Of a DNA stretch of 32,500 bases, positions 3,776-30,727 are shown one piece after another. How positions within the stretch are numbered: the stretch's first letter is position 1; every line of letters begins with the position of its first letter. The notes beneath the pieces were generated by a model that ran no database searches, was not told where the DNA came from, and saw only the letters and a program-made list of their open reading frames with translations. The stretch covers positions 720,001-752,500 of the forward strand of contig JACVTC010000075.1 of the NCBI GenBank assembly GCA_016946835.1, read 5' to 3'. The stretch comes from Neocallimastix lanati (nom. inval.) (lineage: Eukaryota; Neocallimastigomycota; Neocallimastigomycetes; Neocallimastigales; Neocallimastigaceae). The position numbers and the translations under genes were made by a program.

Positions 3776-3784
3776 GGATATTAT
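3776..3784. repeat. Left target-site duplication
   Basis: GGATATTAT directly precedes the left inverted repeat and recurs at 5526-5534. A tenth matching base (G) follows both copies. I assign it to the element on the left because that makes both ends start with GGG. Confidence 0.75.
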
Positions 3785-3888
3785 GGGTGTGGGGCATTTC
3801 GCCAGGTTGCATTTCGCCAATTTTTTTTGAAAGCATGTGGCGTATTAAAAAAATGTGGCATTTCGCCAAGTTGCTTTTCGCCAAATTG
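3785..3888 (+). repeat. Left terminal inverted repeat with four GCATTTCGCC-type subrepeats
   Basis: The core word (GCATTTCGCCA and close variants, such as GCTTTTCGCCA) occurs four times in this stretch, near 3795, 3808, 3854 and 3871, and pairs with the variants at 5436-5525. It is a GC-richer island in very AT-rich DNA. Repeated sub-terminal words like these are often transposase binding sites; that function is inferred. Confidence 0.75.
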
Positions 3889-4500
3889 AGAATTATTAAA
3901 TAAAATAAATAAATAAAATTAAATATTTTTCATATTGATGTATTTATATTTTTGAAGTAAATATTTAAATATTAAAAATTTTTTTTTTCATATATAAATA
4001 GCTTTACAAATATCTGTTTAAATAAATAATAAATTGATAAATAATAAATAAAAAAAAAAAATAATAATAATAAAATAAACAATATAGTAATATAATTAAT
4101 AAAAAAAAATAATAATATAAACACTATTGCTATAATTATAAAAGGATTGTCATTAATAATAATAAATAAAATTATAAATAATAATATTATTATTTGCAAA
4201 TATATATATAAATGAATTAATAAAAATAATATTTACCTACTAAAGAAAAATGTAAAAAGTTTTTCTTATAGTATTTTATAAATTAATAATAAATAATATA
4301 TAATAAATAATAAATAATAAATAAATAATATAAACTGTAGCAATAATTACAGAAACATCAATAATAATATTTTTATAATAACGATGAAAATTATAATAGT
4401 TATTAAATATAAAAATAAATATAAAATTATAATATAAAAATTTTTATACTTTATATAATAAAAAATATAAAAAAAACAACTTTTTTTCAATTACTATTAG

Positions 4501-4733
4501 AATTGCAAAAAGAAGAATCGAAATATTACATTGATTACGAAAGGAGAACTGCTGGAACTTTAAGAAATAAAAAACAAAAAAAATTAATAAGAACTGAGGA
4601 AATTAAAGCTTTGGTTAAATATTACAAAAATATGGAAATTCTATTAAAAAAAAAAAAGAAAAGTGTTAGAAATGATTTCATTGACTTATGGTTGAAATGC
4701 TTAAATGATTTAAATGTAAAAATTATTGATTAA
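4501..4733 (+). CDS. Short lysine-rich exon-like frame inside the transposon
   Basis: An open frame of about 77 codons without an ATG start runs from a good pyrimidine-rich splice acceptor (T-run, then ATTACTATTAG just before 4501) to TAA at 4731. It encodes a basic peptide with EESKYYIDYERRTAGTLRNK near the start and SVRNDFIDLWLKCLNDLNV near the end. The T-run acceptor and the absence of a start codon suggest a terminal exon whose upstream exon is lost or too AT-rich to see. I do not recognise the sequence. Its position between the inverted repeats suggests an element-borne or captured gene fragment. It could also be chance open frame, though its amino-acid mix is more varied than the surrounding low-complexity translations. 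Confidence 0.35.
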
Positions 4734-4784
4734 ATAATAAATTATTAAGAAATGACAGAAAATTGACTAAATGAATTCTGTCAT

Positions 4785-5344
4785 ATATAATAATAATTTT
4801 TTAATAGTAAAAATTATTTTAAAAAGAGAATAAATGAATAAATACAATAATTATTAAAGTATTTTTAATTTTATTAGATTAGGTTAGCATAAGAACATTA
4901 ATATATATTTTTATGATAAAATATTATTATTTTAAAAATATATTTATATAATTAAAATATTGTAATAATATAATTTTTTACAAAATATTAAAATATATCT
5001 TTATAATTAAATATATTTTTATAATTAAATATTATAAATTATTATTTTACGAAATATTAAAATATATAATAATAATTTTTTTAATAGTAAAAATTATTTT
5101 AAAAAGAGAATAAATGAATAAATACAATAATTATTAAAGTATTTTTAATTTTATTAGATTAGGTTAGCTTAAAAACATTAAAATATATTTTTATGATAAA
5201 ATTTTATTATTTTAAAAATATATTTTTATAATAACAGTATTGTTATAATATTATTTTTTTACAAAATATTAAAATATATCTTTATAATTAAATATATTTT
5301 TATAATTAAATATTATTAATAATTATTTTATTTTAAAAAATATC
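4785..5344. repeat. Tandem duplication, two copies of a 280-bp unit
   Basis: The string AAAAAGAGAATAAATGAATA occurs at 4821 and again at 5101, exactly 280 bp apart. The surrounding sequence, including TTTATTAGATTAGGTTAGC, matches across nearly the whole unit with a few substitutions. The duplication lies inside the transposon, downstream of its short frame. Confidence 0.85.
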
Positions 5345-5435
5345 TATAATTAATTATAAAATATAATAAAAACAAGTTTAAAAAAATTATTTTGAATTTT
5401 TATTTATTTATTCATTCATTTACTTATATCAATAA

Positions 5436-5525
5436 GCCATTTGTCGAAATGCAACTTGGGGAAATGCAACATTTTAATAATATGGCCACTTGGCGAAATG
5501 CAATCTAGGGAAATGCAACTCTCCC
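5436..5525 (-). repeat. Right terminal inverted repeat
   Basis: On the plus strand it shows GAAATGCAACTTGGGGAAATGC, TGGCGAAATGCAA and GGGAAATGCAACTCTCCC, the inverse of the left-end words. Several CG or CC positions differ from the left end (CGCC versus CCCC or CGAC), so the ends have diverged since insertion. Confidence 0.75.
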
Positions 5526-5534
5526 GGATATTAT
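5526..5534. repeat. Right target-site duplication
   Basis: GGATATTAT follows the right inverted repeat immediately and is identical to 3776-3784, marking the insertion site of the intervening element. Confidence 0.75.
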
Positions 5535-6842: not shown

Positions 6843-7219
6843 GTCTCCTTCTTGACGGAAATACAGTATAATAAATTTTTTAAAGATTGGCTCAAGGGAA
6901 AGAAGACGTTTTATTAATAATATCTTTCAATCAACTTCCAAAGAGAACTTTTTTTTCCCCGATTTCATATATTTTGTGGGTCTTGTGGAATTCCTTTACT
7001 AATGTTATGCCTATTGGGACTAGTAATTTTCACACTATGAACAATTTGTATACCATTAGACCTACTGTTAACAAGAGCGTCGATACCGAAACTATAAAGC
7101 AAAAAAAAAAAAAAATTTGATACAGAGTTTTTTGAATGATTCATTTTTATTCACATGAAATTATCATCGATGAATGGGAAGAGTTAGAAGCCATTTCGTC
7201 CTCGAAACTCATAATATAG
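6843..7219 (+). pseudogene. Worn gene remnant of unknown identity
   Basis: Base composition rises well above the surroundings and the sequence reads as coding in pieces that change frame. One piece at 6843-6914 gives SFLTEIQYNKFFKDWLKGKK and then stops. A second, overlapping in another frame at 6887-7120, gives NQLPKRTFFSPISYILWVLW and later NLYTIRPTVNKSVDTETIK, and has no ATG start. A third after an A run, about 7129-7219, gives MIHFYSHEIIIDEWEELEA and ends at TAG. The breaks sit next to homopolymers, so this is either a decayed gene or several exons I cannot join. I do not recognise the family. The SFLTEIQ segment resembles the short frame SFLVEERQ seen near 23403, which hints at a shared dispersed source, but the match is too short to rely on. 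Confidence 0.35.
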
Positions 7220-7718
7220 TTTTTTAATATTTATGTAAAAAATTTTATGTATTTTTTTTTCATGTATTTTTTTTTAAAATAAATATTATTAAATTAAATT
7301 TTATTCCTAGTCTATAAAAAAAAAAAAAAAAAAATTAATATTACTAAATTGAAAGAACCTTCATTTAATTTTAATTCCATTCTATTTAAATAATATGAAG
7401 TTATATAAATTTTAATTTTATGTAAATTTGGACATTAAATTATTAAAAAAATGCAAATAGGATTAATAATAATATTATATATATATATTTAAATTTTATT
7501 AATGTATAAAATAAAATTAAGTAAAAAAGATGTTTTTTATTTAAATAAATATATATTATATTATTTTATCTAATTTTATTTTGATGTATATATTATAAAA
7601 CAAAAAATAAATAAAATGAAATAAAATGAAATAAAACATAATAATAAGAAAATAGGGAAAAAAAATAGGGAAAAAAATTAGGGAAAAGAAGTTAAAAGGA
7701 AGTAAAAATAAAAATAAG

Positions 7719-8860: not shown

Positions 8861-9135
8861 GTTTTATAAATATAATAAAATATAAATAATTATTTTATAT
8901 CAATATTGATTAAATAATACACACCACCAATAGTTTATATATTTGTTATCATAAATTAATAAAATATAAATTTATAACTAGATCAATTACACTTTTTGCT
9001 TATTTTTTACATCTAAAGGAGGAATTATAGTGAAAATAAGCATTAATAACTATTTATTACTATGTAACTAAATATATTTATTAGTTTTATATTAAATTAT
9101 AGTTACCTTCTATACAATATAAATTTTTATATTAA
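7220..9135. other. AT-rich spacer, start of the gene desert
   Basis: No supportable gene. It contains (AAT)n runs at about 7721-7755 and 8219-8254, T and A homopolymers, and a hairpin near 8437-8470 with TACTAATTA and TAATTAGTA arms. TTA/TTG triplet-rich sequence lies at 8620-8820. The word TTAATAAATACTCTTTT occurs at 8295-8311. Confidence 0.6.
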
Positions 9136-9665
9136 TTTTATTATTTATTATTTATTATTTATTATTTATTATTTATTATTTATTATTTATTATTTATTTA
9201 TTATTCAATTATTATTTATTATTTATTATTTATTATTTATTATTTATTATTCAATTATTATTCAATTATTTATTATTTATTATTTATTATTTATTATTTA
9301 TTATTTATTATTTATTATTTATTATTTATTATTTATTATTTATTATTTATTATTTATTATTTATTATTTATTATTTATTATTATTATTTATTATTTATTA
9401 TTTATTATTTATTATTTATTATTTATTATTTATTATTTATTATTTATTATTATTTATTATTTATTATTTATTATTTATTATTTATTATTTATTATTTATT
9501 ATTTATTATTTATTATTTATTATTTATTATTTATTATTTATTATTTATTATTTATTATTTATTATTTATTTATTACTTATTATTTATTATTATTTATTTA
9601 CTCTTTTTATTATTTATTTATTATTCAATTATTTAATATTTATTATTGATTATTTATTATTGATT
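9136..9665 (+). repeat. (TTATTTA)n satellite-like array, plus orientation
   Basis: About 500 bp of near-perfect 7-bp TTATTTA repeats. It is interrupted by TTATTCAATTATT variants near 9200-9260 and by single-unit slips (TTATTATTATTTA). It ends near a variant TTTACTCTTTTTATTA motif at about 9595-9611. Confidence 0.9.
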
Positions 9666-10380
9666 AGTGATGATTATTTAATATATCTATAGATATAAAT
9701 TTTTTTTTAAAAAAAAAAAAAGCTTATTTTTTTTAATTTTTAAATTTTTATTTTTTTTATTTTTTTATCTGTTTCAAAATAAAGTAGAAATATAATATAA
9801 ATATATTGATAATATATGCAATTATAATTAAAAAATATAATAAAAATTTAATTAGTATAAATATGGTAAAATTAAAAATTTTATTAATTAACCCTTTTTT
9901 TTTTTTTTTTTTATAAATTCAATAATATAAAATATAAAATACATCAACCATTAATTATTTTCGAATAATAAAACATCAAAAAGTAAAATATAAACAATTA
10001 ACATTAATAATCATAATTGTAATAATATTTATAATAGTTTTAATAATACTAATATTTATAATAATAATATTAATAATAATAATAATATTTATAATAAAGA
10101 TTATTACTACTATTATAAAAATATTCATAATAAGGATAATAATATTTATTAATGATAATATATTTTATATTGTTTTAAAAATTTTTTAAACATTTTCTTA
10201 TAATGAATTTCTGTTTGTTTTTAAAAAAATAACAAAATTTTAAAAATATAAATTTTAAAATTTCGGTTTTTTTTAATTTTTCCAATAATTTATTATGATT
10301 TATTATTGTTAATGATTTAAATAGTTATTAATTATTGGTATTTTAAATGATTTAAATAGACTTAATTTATTATATAATAT
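9666..10380. other. AT-rich spacer between arrays
   Basis: No gene seen. It holds A and T runs and a TAATAATAATATT-type simple repeat at about 10020-10150. Confidence 0.6.
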
Positions 10381-10662
10381 ATTTATTTACTATTTACTAT
10401 TTATTATTTATTATTTATTATTTATTATTTATTATTTATTAATAAATACTCTTTTTATTATTTATTATTTATTATTTATTATTTATTATTTATTATTTAT
10501 TATTCAATTATTTATTATTTATTATTCAATTATTTATTATTTATTATTTATTATTTATTATTTATTATTTATTATTTATTATTCAATTATTTATTATTTA
10601 TTATTTATTATTTATTACTTATTATTTATTATTTATTACTTATTATTTATTATTTATTAATA
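10381..10662 (+). repeat. (TTATTTA)n array, plus orientation
   Basis: A second array of the same 7-bp unit, with TTATTCAATTATTTATT variants, and the word TTAATAAATACTCTTTT at 10439-10455 inside it. Confidence 0.88.
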
Positions 10663-11221
10663 ATATAGAGTTTAAAATTCATTTAGATTTGATCTTTTTT
10701 TTAAAAAAAAAAATAAATATGAACATTGAATATTGATATTGTAAATAGTAAGAGAACATTAAAATAATTATAATTATAATAGTATAATGATATATATTAT
10801 TTATTTTATTATTAAGAAAGCTATGATTTATAATAATAATATAGTAATGCACTAGACTATTTTAAGTTTGGGTTTTTACCATAAAATAAGAATTTATGGT
10901 AAATAAAAGGGTATACAGAAGAAATTAATAGTTAATTGACTGAAAATTAAGCAACTATTAATACTTATTATTTAATAGTCACTATTAAATAATTAAATAA
11001 ATGAAAGAAAAAGAAATAAACAAAATAATTGTTTTTCTTTTCTTTTTTTTTCTTTTTTTATTCATTTTTTAATAATTTAATAAAGATGAATTGCTCAGAA
11101 ATCGATTAATTAATTTTTAGTTTATATATTTATATATATTTAATAAATTTATATATTCTTTATAAAAAAATATATTTATTAATATATAGATAATATAATA
11201 TCAAAGCATATTAAATATAAT
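10663..11221. other. AT-rich spacer
   Basis: No gene. Slightly richer sequence at about 10850-10985 (a GTTTGGGTTTTTACC stretch) contains no open frame worth calling. Confidence 0.55.
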
Positions 11222-15387: not shown

Positions 15388-15430
15388 ATTATAAATATTA
15401 AAAATTATAAAATTTAATTATAATTTTTTA
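11416..15430. other. AT-rich spacer, four kilobases without a gene
   Basis: I find no gene. Small islands of mixed composition occur at 11815-11880 (ACTCTACTATCCGGAAATGG) and 12865-12890 (CCCACCTACATTCCCC), but no reading frame spans them. A diverged duplicate pair lies at 12489-12665 and 12982-13101. Frames in this stretch (for example 12272-12466 and 14899-15090) are tyrosine/asparagine or phenylalanine/isoleucine translations of repeats. Confidence 0.6.
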
Positions 15431-16275
15431 AAAAATGTATCATTAATAAATAATTGAATAATAAATAATAAATAATAAATAATAAATAATAAATAATAAA
15501 TAATAAATAATTGAATAATAAATAATAAATAATTATAATAATAAATAATAAATAATAAATAATAAATAATAAATAATAAATAATAAATAATTGAATAATA
15601 AATAATTAATAATAAATAATTAAATAATAAGTAATAAATAATAAATAATAAATAATTGAATAATAAATAATAAATAATTGAATAATAGAAAAGAGTATTT
15701 ATTAATAAATAATAAATAATAAATAATAAATAATAAATAATAAATAATAAATAATAAATAAAAAATAAATAAATAATAAATAATAAATAATAAATAATAA
15801 ATAATAAATAATACATAATACATAAATAAATAATAAATAATAGTAAATAATAATATAAATAATAAATAATTGAATAATAAATAATTAATAATAAATAATT
15901 AAATAATAAGTAATAAATAATAAATAATTAATAATAAATAATTAAATAATAAGTAATAAATAATAAATAATAAATAATAAATAATAAATAATTGAATAAT
16001 AAATAATAAATAATTATAATAATAAATAATAAATAATAAATAATAAATAATAAATAATTAAATAATAATTGAATAATAAATAATAAATAATTGAATAATA
16101 AATAATAAATAATTAAATAATAAGTAATATATAATAAATAATAAATAATAAATAATAAATAATAAATAATAAATAATAAATAATTGAATAATAAATAATT
16201 AAATAATAAATAATAAATAATAAATAATAAATAATAAATAATAAATAATAAATAATAAATAATAAATAATAAAAT
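15431..16275 (-). repeat. Long (TTATTTA)n array, minus orientation, with higher-order duplication
   Basis: About 840 bp of AATAAATAATAAATAA units with frequent AATAATTGAATAAT and AATAATAAGTAAT variants. The same succession of variants beginning TTGAATAATAAATAATTAAT occurs at 15591 and again at 15870, 279 bp apart, so part of the array was duplicated as a block. The motif AAAAGAGTATTTATTAA, the complement of the one in the plus-oriented arrays, is at 15689-15705. Two overlapping long frames here are repeat translations only. Confidence 0.9.
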
Positions 16276-17098
16276 TAGGTAATAAATTCATAAATAGTTA
16301 ATAATTAATAAATAATAAATTTATTATGTATATATTATATATATATTATATATATAATATAAATAATATATATAAAATAGGATATATTATTGAAAAATGA
16401 CTTAATAAATAAATGAAATTAACAAATTTTTATTAAATAATATTTTTTAACATTTTTAATTTAATTCAGATGAAAATGCTTCAAATTTTAAAAATTTTAA
16501 AAAACAAAAAAAAACAAAAAAAAAAAAAGAATTCTTAATTTAAAACAAATATAGACATATACCTATAGAGATAGAGAAATAAAAATTAATAAAACGATTA
16601 ACACCAATCCAAACTAATTAATTAGAAGAGGAATTCCCTTTTTTTATTTATTATTATAAACTATTAATTATTTATAATTTATTCGATGGAATGGGAATAT
16701 CTATACAAGTATTTTAGACATAGAATCAAAAAAATAAGGAAAAGTATTGTAAATCTAAATAAATAGCTGTTTGATTGTATAAATTATGTAAGTCAAATTA
16801 AATAATAAATATATCATTTTATTTTATTTTATTTTTTTTTCTTTAATATATTTAATACAGATATAGTTATTTGAAACAATAATATTAAAATATAAAATAT
16901 GAATTATAAATAATAATAATAATACTATTATTGTTAATAATAATACCAACAATAATAACTTATTTTAATAGTAAAAAAAATATAAATAAATCTATAATTG
17001 TATAATTCTCACAATAAATAAATATTAATTAAAAAAAAAAAAAAAGAATAAAGAAAGAAAACAAATTTAATAAATAAAAAAAAAAAAAAGATAATTAG
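16276..17098. other. AT-rich spacer
   Basis: No gene. A somewhat richer stretch at about 16555-16790, including GAAGAGGAATTCCC and GGAATGGGAATATC, has no sustained open frame. Confidence 0.55.
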
Positions 17099-19795: not shown

Positions 19796-21968
19796 ATGTC
19801 TACTCCAGGAACTCCATACAACGGTGGCCCATTCGAACGTATTCGTTCCCTTTCTGTCACTGTAAGAATCTTTTTTAAAAGAAATATTAAGATATATTAC
19901 GATATAATTATTATTTAAAATATAATTGAAGAATATAGAATATATATGTATATAAAAAAATAGTAACATTATAATAAAATATTTTAAAATTGAAAATATA
20001 ATAATTATTATAATATAGGGTTTTGAAGCTAACACTATCAGCGTTGCTTCTAAACAACTTAGAATTGAACTTGATAAATTAGCTAGTCAAATTAGTAATG
20101 ATGAAAGACGTGCTGTAAGCTCATAATTTTTATTATTCTTTAATAAATAAATAAATAAAATAATAAAATAATAAAATAAAAAATTTATTTAATATTAACG
20201 GAAATAAATATATAAATATTTTTATAATTTAACTTATGATCAATATTAAAATTATTTAATAAGGCTTTCGAAAATGAAATGGATAACTTTTATGCTTTAT
20301 TCAAGAGATATCTTCAAGAAAAGACTTCTACTAAGAAATTGTAAGTGAATCATTTAATTTATATAATTGATGAGTAATAAATAATGAAATTTTTGTAATT
20401 GGAGAATAATTGATATTGATTGTAGATAATATAGTTATATTTAAATATATTATATTTAAAGTTATGATATAAAATAAAAATATGAAAAAAAAAAATTTTT
20501 TTTGACCAATTATATTAAAGTTTAAAAAAAAAAGGATCATCCACAGAATAAATAAAAAATTAATAGATGATTAATTAATAATCATTAATTTTTATTTTAA
20601 AAAATTGTAAATAATATTAAATGTTTTTTTTTTTTTTTTTTTTTTAAAACTTTTTTTTTTTTTTATTGATTTTTTAAATCTAGAGACTGGGATCTTATCA
20701 AGTCTCCAAGTTCTGATGAAATTATTCCATACAAGAATTTAGTAAAGTGTACTGAAGACAAAGAAAAGGAAATTTTAAATAAGCTTGCTGTCTTAAAACT
20801 TAATGGTGGTTTAGGTACTACTATGGGTTGTGTTGGTCCAAAGAGTGCTATTGAAGTCAGAGATAATATGACTTTCCTTGATTTAACTGTCAGACAAATT
20901 GAATACTTAAACGAACAAAATGGTGTTAATGTTCCATTCATTTTAATGAACTCTTTCAATACTGATGAAGAAACTAAGCGTATTGTTCAAAAGTACACTG
21001 GTCATAATGTTAACATTTTAACCTTTAATCAATCTCGTTTCCCAAGAATTAAGAAGGATTCTCTCTTACCACTTGCTCGTACTCCAGATGATGAAATTTC
21101 TCACTGGTACCCACCAGGTCACGGTGACTTATTCGAATCCTTATACAACTCTGGTGTCTTAGATCGTCTTATTGCCGATGGTAAGGAATACATTTTCATT
21201 TCTAATGTTGATAATCTTGGTGCTACCGTTGATACTTCTATCTTAAACCATATGATTGAAACTGATGCTGAATTCATTATGGAAGTTACTGATAAGACTC
21301 GTGCTGATGTTAAGGGTGGTACCTTAATTGATTACAATGGTCAAGTTAGATTACTTGAAATTGCTCAAGTTCCATCTGAACATGTTGATGAATTCAAATC
21401 TATTAAGAAGTTTAAGATTTTCAACACTAACAACTTATGGATTTCCTTAAAGGCTCTTAAGCGTGTTATGGAAAACAATGAATTAAACCTTGATTTAATT
21501 GTTAACAACAAGACTTTAAATACTGGTGAAAAGGTTATTCAATTAGAAACTGCTGTTGGTGCTGCCATCAAGCACTTCAAGAAGTCTCATGGTGTTAACG
21601 TTCCAAGAAAGCGTTTCTTACCAGTTAAGAGTACTTCTGATCTTTTCCTTGTTACTTCTGATTTATACAAGCTTCAACATGGTCAACTTATCATGAATCC
21701 ACAAAGAATGTTTAATACCGTTCCATTAGTTAAATTAGGTGATCACTTTAAGAAGGTCGGTGACTTCTTAAGTCGTTTCCAAAAGCCACCACACATTTTA
21801 GAATTAGATCACTTAACTGTTACTGGTGATGTTACTTTTGGTAGAGATGTTCAACTTCGTGGTACTGTTATCATTGTTGCTAATAGTGGTTGTAGAATTG
21901 ATATTCCATCTGGTTCTATTTTAGAAAATAAGGTTGTCTCTGGTAACCTTCGTATTCTTGACCATTAA
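19796..21968 (+). CDS. UGP: UTP-glucose-1-phosphate uridylyltransferase (UDP-glucose pyrophosphorylase), complete, four exons
   Basis: Exons are 19796-19861, 20019-20114, 20264-20340 and 20684-21968. All introns are GT..AG (157, 149 and 343 bp) and junction phases agree, giving 507 residues, the usual length for eukaryotic UGPases. The cytosolic enzyme makes UDP-glucose from UTP and glucose-1-phosphate, feeding glycogen, trehalose, cellulose and glycosylation. Visible motifs: [17 protein letters not shown] at 118-134 (nucleotide-binding loop), FNQSRFPRI at 194-202, WYPPGHGD at 221-228, SNVDNLGA at 253-260 (metal and sugar-phosphate region), ADVKGG at 287-292, [10 protein letters not shown] at 366-375, and [13 protein letters not shown] at 388-400 with the conserved catalytic-type lysine at 396. 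The C-terminus (about 456-507) has the [13 protein letters not shown] pattern of the left-handed beta-helix used for oligomer contacts. The ATG follows an A-rich leader (TCAAAATG). Codon choice (GGT, GTT, AAG, CCA) suggests strong expression. D. discoideum has two UGPase paralogues; I cannot say which one this matches. Confidence 0.96.
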
Positions 21969-23527: not shown

Positions 23528-23994
23528 TATTATTATTTTAAGAACCATATCATTTCAGAAAAAAAAAAAGAGAAAAAAAAAAAAAAAAAAAAAAAAAATA
23601 TCATTTCAGAAAGATTATTCTAAAAACTAAAAACGCCATTCTTGGGGCGATCTACGCCTCTCTTTTTACAGAAATTATGCCTAAAGGCTTGTACACTCTG
23701 ACAAGGGTTGTACTATTCTGACAGTATAAAATGCAAACTAATCAGGGGCTTCAACACTGAAAATGTAATAAGACAAGTTAGCAGGAGGGCCAATGCTTCT
23801 GAAGGAGAAGAAGACCAATAATTTCTTTTCAGATCGTCAATTCAAACCCTAAACATAAGGAAATGAGGTTCGTTGTATACGGAACTTTTTTTTTTTCTAA
23901 ATTTATTTATACATTTTATTTTTTGAATATTACTTTTTTTATTTCATATTATTATTTAAAATATTATTAAGTTCTAATTGGACAAACTATATTT

Positions 23995-24025
<31 letters not shown>

Positions 24026-24157
24026 ATTAATTCTGTGTTTTTTTTTTATTTTTTATTAAAATTAAAAATATTCAATTCATGTAATTAGTAAATGAATAAA
24101 TAAATAAAGATTAAAGTTCTCAATAATTTTTGATTATAAAAAAAAAAAAAAAAAAAT
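23241..24157 (+). repeat. Dispersed segment, copy 1, ending in poly(A)
   Basis: This stretch is homologous, in the same orientation, to 29990-30727. Shared landmarks in order are GTAGTGAAT..TCAAAT, CTGAATAATGA, TCCTTCTTGGTAGAAGAGA, AGGAATGG..ATGTTTTTTT, ACAGAAATTATGCCTA, AAGGGTTG, CTGAAAATG, TAGCAGGA, CTGAAGGAGAAG, ATTTCTTT, GAGGTTC, TTTCATATTATTATTTAAAA and ATTCATGTAATTAGTAAATG. Both end in an A-run (here about 24139-24157), after which similarity stops. The middle part (23620-23890) has much higher GC than the surroundings. No frame stays open through it. A retroelement 3' end, an old gene duplication or an RNA gene pair would all fit; I do not recognise the sequence. Confidence 0.7.
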
Positions 24158-29845: not shown

Positions 29846-30096
29846 AGTTCTGATTCTGATAGTAGTAGTTATGAAGCATATAATATTAATAATAATAACA
29901 ATAGAAATAATATATTACTAATAATAGAAATATCAGCAATAGTGAAAATAGGAATATTAATAATAGTAGTGATAGTGAAAATAATAGAATGGTTACTAAT
30001 TATGTAGTGAATAGGTCAAATGATGATAATCATATAAATATTAGTAATTTTCTGAATAATGAATGTATAAATATATATAATGTAACGATTATGTAA
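29825..30096 (+). pseudogene. Asn/Ser/Asp-rich coding fragment with a frameshift
   Basis: On the plus strand the sequence reads NRNNGESSSDSDSSSYEA and on into an Asn run. It then shifts frame near 29910-29930 and continues as NRNISNSENRNINNSSDSEN and MVTNYVVNRSNDDNHINISN, stopping at TAA 30094-30096. Asn- and Ser-rich tracts with AAT/AGT codons are typical of dictyostelid proteins. Part of the end (GTAGTGAAT..TCAAAT) matches 23270-23290, so this fragment may belong to the dispersed segment. No upstream start is visible; the ankyrin pseudogene abuts it on the other strand. Confidence 0.45.
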
Positions 30097-30207
30097 CATC
30101 CTTCTTGGTGGAAGAGATGCAGACATTCTTAATTTAAATTATGAAAAAAAAAAGGAATGGGATGTTTTTTTTTTGTTTAAGAACTAAATCATTTCTGGTG
30201 ATTATTC

Positions 30208-30240
<33 letters not shown>

Positions 30241-30727
30241 CCATTCTAGATGTGATCTGCGGCTCTCTTTACAGAAATTATACCTAGGACTAGTACACTT
30301 GATAAGGGTTGCTATTCCGATAGTATAAGTATAAATTAACGCTGAAAATGCAGTAAGACAGACTAGCAGGATCCAGTGCCTCTGAAGGAGAAGACCATAA
30401 TTTCTTTCAGATAGTCCATTCAAAACCTAATCCAGAATAAGAATTCCCTTTTAAACAGAAATCTTATAATCTGAAGGTGAGGTTCATTGCATATGAACTT
30501 TTTTCTGAATTTACTTATACCCTTTGTTTTGAATATAACTTTTTATTTCATATTATATTTAAAATATTATTATATTCTAATTGATTAAATACTATTTATT
30601 TTTTTTATTAATAGAATTTTTTCTATATAAAAAAAAAATTCATATAATTAATAAATGAATAGATAAATAAAATTAAAAGTTTGTAATAATTGCGACAATA
30701 ATAATTAAAAAAAAAAAAAAAAAAAAA
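29990..30727 (+). repeat. Dispersed segment, copy 2, ending in poly(A)
   Basis: Counterpart of 23241-24157 with the same landmarks in the same order, for example TCCTTCTTGGTGGAAGAGA, ACAGAAATTATACCTA, TAGCAGGATCC, CTCTGAAGGAGAAGACC, GAGGTTCATTG and TTTCATATTATATTTAAAAT, ending in an A-run at about 30709-30727. It is shorter because copy 1 has longer homopolymers and extra bases. Indels between copies are not multiples of three. The minus-strand frame at 30202-30423 in this copy is interrupted in copy 1, which argues against it being a gene. The upstream edge overlaps the end of an N/S-rich coding fragment. Confidence 0.7.

Follow-up and report, generated by a model that had tools for sequence, protein, structure and literature searches.

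A deletion derivative of a Mutator-like DNA transposon, probably non-autonomous, and its transposase-bearing relatives in a genome most likely belonging to an anaerobic gut fungus

The window, that is, the whole stretch of 32,500 nucleotides analyzed here, contains a 1,741-bp element at positions 3785-5525 with inverted ends that each start with GGG. To the left of the element, pieces of a host gene for a RAI16-like protein are found at 3-2136 on the minus strand, while a host gene for UTP-glucose-1-phosphate uridylyltransferase is located at 20670-21968 on the plus strand. A dispersed repeat of approximately 490 bp (6843-7334) is 80-81% identical to sequence in two other loci, L041 and L048, and the segments 29974-30716 and 23751-24149, which probably represent an older repeat, both match a single region of L048 at 72-74% identity. 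Long TAATAAA-like arrays at 9068-9692, 10325-10736 and 15418-16287 produce spurious ORFs in several reading frames. A search of the window against Rfam at gathering thresholds gave no match.

The boundaries of the element were determined with a script looking for GGG-type tips beside reiterated words together with a 9-bp direct repeat outside the tips. It returned 3785 and 5525, the same positions as in a preliminary description of this DNA, which had claimed a complete element with exact 9-bp target duplications, two inverted ends starting with GGG and reiterated words within them. All of this was borne out. The sequence GGATATTAT is found on the left at 3776-3784 and, as an exact match, on the right at 5526-5534. 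The element begins with GGGTGTGGGGCATTTCGCC and finishes with GGGAAATGCAACTCTCCC. Its terminal inverted repeats, approximately 100 bp per end and alignable with gaps, extend over 3785-3890 on the plus strand (tip GGGTGTGGG) and 5425-5525 on the minus strand (tip GGGAGAGTT, read on that strand), and the arm alignments include, for example, one stretch of 36 nt with 81% identity and another of 44 nt with 86%. Seven of the nine GCATTTCGCC-like words (at most one mismatch) present in the window fall inside these two ends, versus 0.04 expected from shuffled sequences. Units of 15 bp start in the left repeat at 3794 and 3809 (outer) and at 3858 and 3873 (inner), with a spacer containing GTGGCGTATTA between the two pairs, and in the right repeat at 5516 and 5501 (outer) and at 5467 and 5452 (inner).

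We then looked at the assembly containing the window, which comprises 199 Mb in 762 contigs. There are 333 occurrences of the exact left tip (19-mer) and 623 of the exact right tip (16-mer), versus 0 for each of the reversed tip patterns used as a genome-wide control. These numbers exclude a single-copy sequence lacking related ends elsewhere, one of the observations that the preliminary description had named as refuting it. Searching with the left end gave 40 matches of at least 94% identity plus six shorter ones (40 of 793 candidates scored), and searching with the right end gave 40 matches of at least 94% identity (40 of 679 candidates scored). For contigs C1 to C36, for which complete lists of both exact tips were available, an inward-facing exact right tip was located less than 6 kb from 44 of the 52 exact left tips. 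The spans from tip to nearest tip ranged from 96 to 5529 bp and did not exceed 396 bp in 37 of the 44 cases, which means that short, MITE-sized copies predominate in this sample. Relatives were absent from viral contigs, whether searched for by protein or by end pattern. Three pairs of loci (L034/L036, L045/L046 and L037/L039) share both site and flanks and are duplicates of one insertion. On contig C124 of the same assembly (G000), left-end matches at 36204, 49794 and 63383 are spaced by 13,590 and 13,589 bp, as if they were part of a tandem array of units of approximately 13.6 kb, possibly ribosomal DNA.

Longer copies with a MULE transposase, which the preliminary description had proposed as relatives to look for, were found at four loci. 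Between the same ends, L045, L049, L055 and L056 code for proteins matching the MULE domain PF10551 with 41.7 to 43.6 bits, above the curated Pfam cut-off of 27.6 bits. The L049 element (3188 bp) has tips of the window type and a 465-aa frame that departs from the usual C-terminus (PF10551, 43.3 bits; FLYWCH, 21.7 bits, below the curated cut-off of 23.6 bits). The L045 element (2425 bp) has a 370-aa frame with a missing N-terminus (PF10551, 43.6 bits). In the L055 element (3108 bp, without target duplication), a single stop interrupts the frame (PF10551, 41.7 bits; FLYWCH, 32.3 bits), and the L056 element (approximately 2740 bp), in which tips are altered, the left one among them, has a 436-aa frame with an early end (PF10551, 42.9 bits; FLYWCH, 32.5 bits). 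Among the same-ended copies, the FLYWCH zinc finger therefore exceeds its cut-off in L055 and L056; the remaining Pfam matches to the four frames were to FLYWCH or below threshold. In a fifth copy, L039 (3209 bp), the frame is broken and matches PF10551 in part, with 26.5 bits, below the cut-off. Each of these five copies has a flaw and none of them encodes a fully intact transposase. The motifs FxDGT, HCDFE and SE, which presumably hold the catalytic acids of the DDE triad, show no variation among those aligned frames that span them. A comparison with proteins of solved structure gave no sequence match at E values up to 1. When the L045 protein was searched against the genome, the 111 scored matches (itself included) comprised 17 at 83% identity or more, seven at 71-75%, each with at least seven in-frame stops, and 87 at 58-61%. 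Genome-wide, there were at least 150 matches to PF10551 (150 scored among 862 candidates).

Alignment of the window element with the L049 element indicated how the two are related. They agree in 1680 of 1724 aligned columns (97.4%), and the main pieces of a local BLAST alignment, in which small gaps are counted, show 90-94% identity. One clean gap of 1352 bp, with its junction after position 4468 (4468-4469), removes the transposase gene except for its last approximately 80 codons; seven further gaps of at least four bases measure 4 to 73 bp. What is left of the gene, including the stop codon, is a plus-strand frame at 4485-4733 whose peptide is nearly identical to the C-terminus of the L039 and L055 frames and shares their stop. 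It is also nearly identical to the region that precedes the divergent or truncated C-termini of L049 and L045. This remnant lies outside the PF10551 domain, and Pfam returned only two matches to it, both sub-threshold and unrelated. The earlier view that the interior lacks a recognizable transposase thus holds for a Pfam domain search and fails on comparison with the family: an interior devoid of transposase sequence was ruled out by comparing 4485-4733 with the longer copies having the same ends. Between the remnant and the right end, a pair of direct repeats (183 nt, 95% identity, spacing of 280 bp) occupies 4797-5259 on the plus strand, and a similar pair can be seen by eye in the L049 element. 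In summary, the window copy has kept the ends of a transposase-bearing relative and lost most of the transposase gene through an internal deletion, the combination by which a non-autonomous derivative is recognized.

Target-site duplications were evaluated at 26 distinct insertion sites with both ends, the window included. Outside this sample were L013 and L016, with a single end within the stretch, as well as L036, L037, L046 and L001 to L009, which repeat sites already represented. An exact 9-bp duplication was present at 17 of the 26 sites, in agreement with the expectation formulated earlier that copies sharing both ends would each have their own duplication. With fixed tips, 15 elements showed it (the window, L029, L030, L031, L033, L034, L039, L041, L043, L045, L048, L049, L011, L012 and L015; the duplication in L049 is GTATTTTAT), and two more (L014 and L044) did so once the last base of one tip was allowed to vary. 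Imperfect duplications were observed at three sites (one mismatch in L040; two each in L010 and L056 in a relaxed scan with a variable last tip base and boundaries shifted by one base), and no recognizable duplication at the six others (L032, L035, L038, L042, L047 and L055). When flanks were exchanged among the 16 fixed-tip elements, none of 240 pairs matched, versus 15 of 16 at their own sites, and a control with shifted offsets gave 6 matches in 1800 (18 elements, two being duplicates of others). Because the nine allowed shifts raise the chance rate (6/1800 per comparison), the 15 fixed-tip duplications are the stronger evidence. Moreover, identity ends after nine base pairs: the tenth base agrees in none of the 16 elements on one side, and on the other side in 3 of them. 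As for the sites lacking a duplication, L038 and L055 sit between longer flanking repeats, and in L032 (7072-7404) as well as in L047 (609-986) the two tips are of one type; we infer that these four are recombination products. Despite the AT-richness of the surrounding DNA, the duplication starts with G or C in 10 of 16 elements, which weakly hints at a target preference.

Sites without the insertion were sought by joining the two flanks of an element with one copy of the duplication. For L029, all of the matches scored (40 of 123 candidates, 89-94% identity) ran through the junction, and the five sites that were read lacked an insert and showed the CCTAACTCC-like word just once. The target of the L029 insertion is one copy of a dispersed repeat. 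This repeat measures at least 121 bp and has at least 40 copies at 89-94% identity (sites L050 to L054 among them, for example G000:C756:714145-714266). For L045, 40 matches to the joined flanks were obtained: four are halves of two occupied copies (on C50 and C24), 33 are confined to one flank, in some cases together with the duplication, and three extend across the junction with 77-84% identity and are compatible with unoccupied sites. For the window site, no unoccupied allele was found with the joined flanks, which returned two halves at the occupied locus and 12 further, weaker matches, most of them short.

Taken together, we are highly confident that the element belongs to the Mutator (MULE) superfamily of cut-and-paste DNA transposons, as an internally deleted and probably non-autonomous copy, that its host is most likely an anaerobic gut fungus and that its ends are shared by relatives of approximately 3.2 kb, which have a MULE transposase frame in between. 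A MULE domain in same-ended copies, a 9-bp duplication and long inverted repeats, features by which MULEs are recognized, are present, and the Mutator-like structure proposed in the preliminary description is upheld by the longer copies that combine these ends with PF10551 and 9-bp duplications. Duplications of 8-9 bp occur outside MULEs too, and their size would be equally at home in a superfamily such as hAT, P or Merlin whose ends look Mutator-like by chance. This reading is very improbable given that PF10551 exceeds its curated cut-off in L045, L049, L055 and L056, all with the same ends. The duplication sizes given for MULEs in PMC6446971 range from 8 to 11 bp. Similarly improbable is a repeat that does not move and was multiplied through segmental duplication or ectopic recombination, with direct repeats arising by chance. 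Such a process would account for the three pairs of loci duplicated together with their flanks and is in line with the six of 26 sites that lack a duplication, but it is contradicted by exact duplications at 17 sites, by distinct flanks having distinct duplications, with no cross-match in the 240 exchanges among 16 elements, and by the uninterrupted paralogous sites of the L029 insertion.

The preliminary description had also placed the element in a Dictyostelium setting, to which the AT-rich sequence and the long homopolymers lend some plausibility. Nevertheless, the same assembly encodes at least 150 CBM_10 domains (150 scored among 1440 candidates), versus none in 14 control genomes, and PF02013/CBM_10 is presumably the dockerin of anaerobic fungi. 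Hundreds of dockerin proteins are indicated for anaerobic fungi in PMC12341934 and PMC5622200, and the former gives assembly sizes of 187-201 Mb and a G+C content of approximately 18% for Neocallimastix, close to the 199 Mb of the present assembly and the 16.7% in the stretches L029 to L049. The likely host is therefore an anaerobic gut fungus resembling Neocallimastix. A dictyostelid origin was ruled out by the dockerin count and, of all the alternatives, is the one we consider least credible. In a dockerin-rich genome, comparison of the ends with DDT, Tdd and thug elements is beside the point.

In this reading, the transposase of the longer copies would recognize the ends, probably through the GCATTTCGCC-type 15-bp units arranged in two blocks per end, excise the element and insert it where the two strands are broken with a 9-bp stagger. 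With transposase supplied from elsewhere, the window copy would move in trans, as would the many copies of approximately 200-400 bp.

The organization of the ends was compared in 16 elements (32 ends), using a unit pattern that permits variants, so that the counts depend on the pattern. Every end has its first GCATTTC-type unit beginning at base 10. An outer block of one to three units at exact 15-bp steps is followed, after a step of 47-49 bp on the left and 33-34 bp on the right, by an inner block of one to four units. Exceptions are the left end of L015 and the right end of L030, with a single unit, and the right end of L041, with two units and no inner block. Between the window and L049 elements, two gaps of 14 bp (as aligned) fall in the outer blocks, one per end, and there the unit counts differ by one. 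The 15-bp units are likely transposase-binding sites. More tentatively, and with slightly less than even confidence, we propose that the ends are modular: phased 15-bp putative binding units (GCATTTCSCC plus 5) would form an outer block from base 10 and an inner block, separated by a nearly fixed spacer that differs between left and right, and their number would change by whole units between copies. Copies may then differ in binding strength and mobility, and recombination at the units may swap tips between ends; L032 and L047, both lacking a duplication, resemble such swaps. The two-block arrangement of phased 15-bp units is a mildly unusual feature of this family.

The element otherwise resembles known MULEs in which a transposase-bearing parent is accompanied by internally deleted derivatives, sharing with them the MULE domain, the 9-bp duplications, the long inverted ends and the retention of the parental ends, and differing in the two-block construction of its ends from phased 15-bp units. 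TvMULE (Parabasalia) and MuDRx-Phytophthora (Oomycota), listed in Table 1 of PMC6446971, are comparable in having a single frame, a FLYWCH-type finger and duplications that measure 9-11 bp or 9 bp; their inverted repeats measure 20-38 bp and 40-80 bp, versus approximately 100 bp here, and the likeness is one of features. The string "neocallimast" does not occur in the text of that article. No description of Mutator-like elements from Neocallimastigomycota was found among literature titles and the beginnings of abstracts, a scope that left out Repbase and most subscription journals. The family is possibly undescribed, while the kind of element is ordinary and well known. MULE transposase sequences are abundant in this genome, although we found no description of such elements from anaerobic gut fungi, and the family, in which a single genome combines copies that bear a transposase with deletion derivatives and numerous short copies, provides a tidy case for the multiplication of short elements. 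According to a 2018 article (PMC5796279), no gene-insertion protocols existed for anaerobic gut fungi, and a native transposon with well-defined ends could therefore be practically useful.

Other MULE groups are present in the same genome, namely the loci L017 to L028 and the 58-61% matches to the L045 protein, many of them with frames of 473-497 aa. The 473-aa group (L017 to L028) is set apart from the group of 58-61% matches. Its members L018, L020, L023 and L026 share 57-58% identity with the L049 transposase, and PF10551 and FLYWCH both exceed their cut-offs in L018 (473-aa frame) and L023. Unlike the family of the window element, 11 of these 12 loci (L018 to L028) contain no TTTCGCC-type word in approximately 3.3 kb each, while L017 has two. 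Identical scores were frequent in both the PF10551 and the L045-protein searches, suggesting near-identical copies and recent spread.
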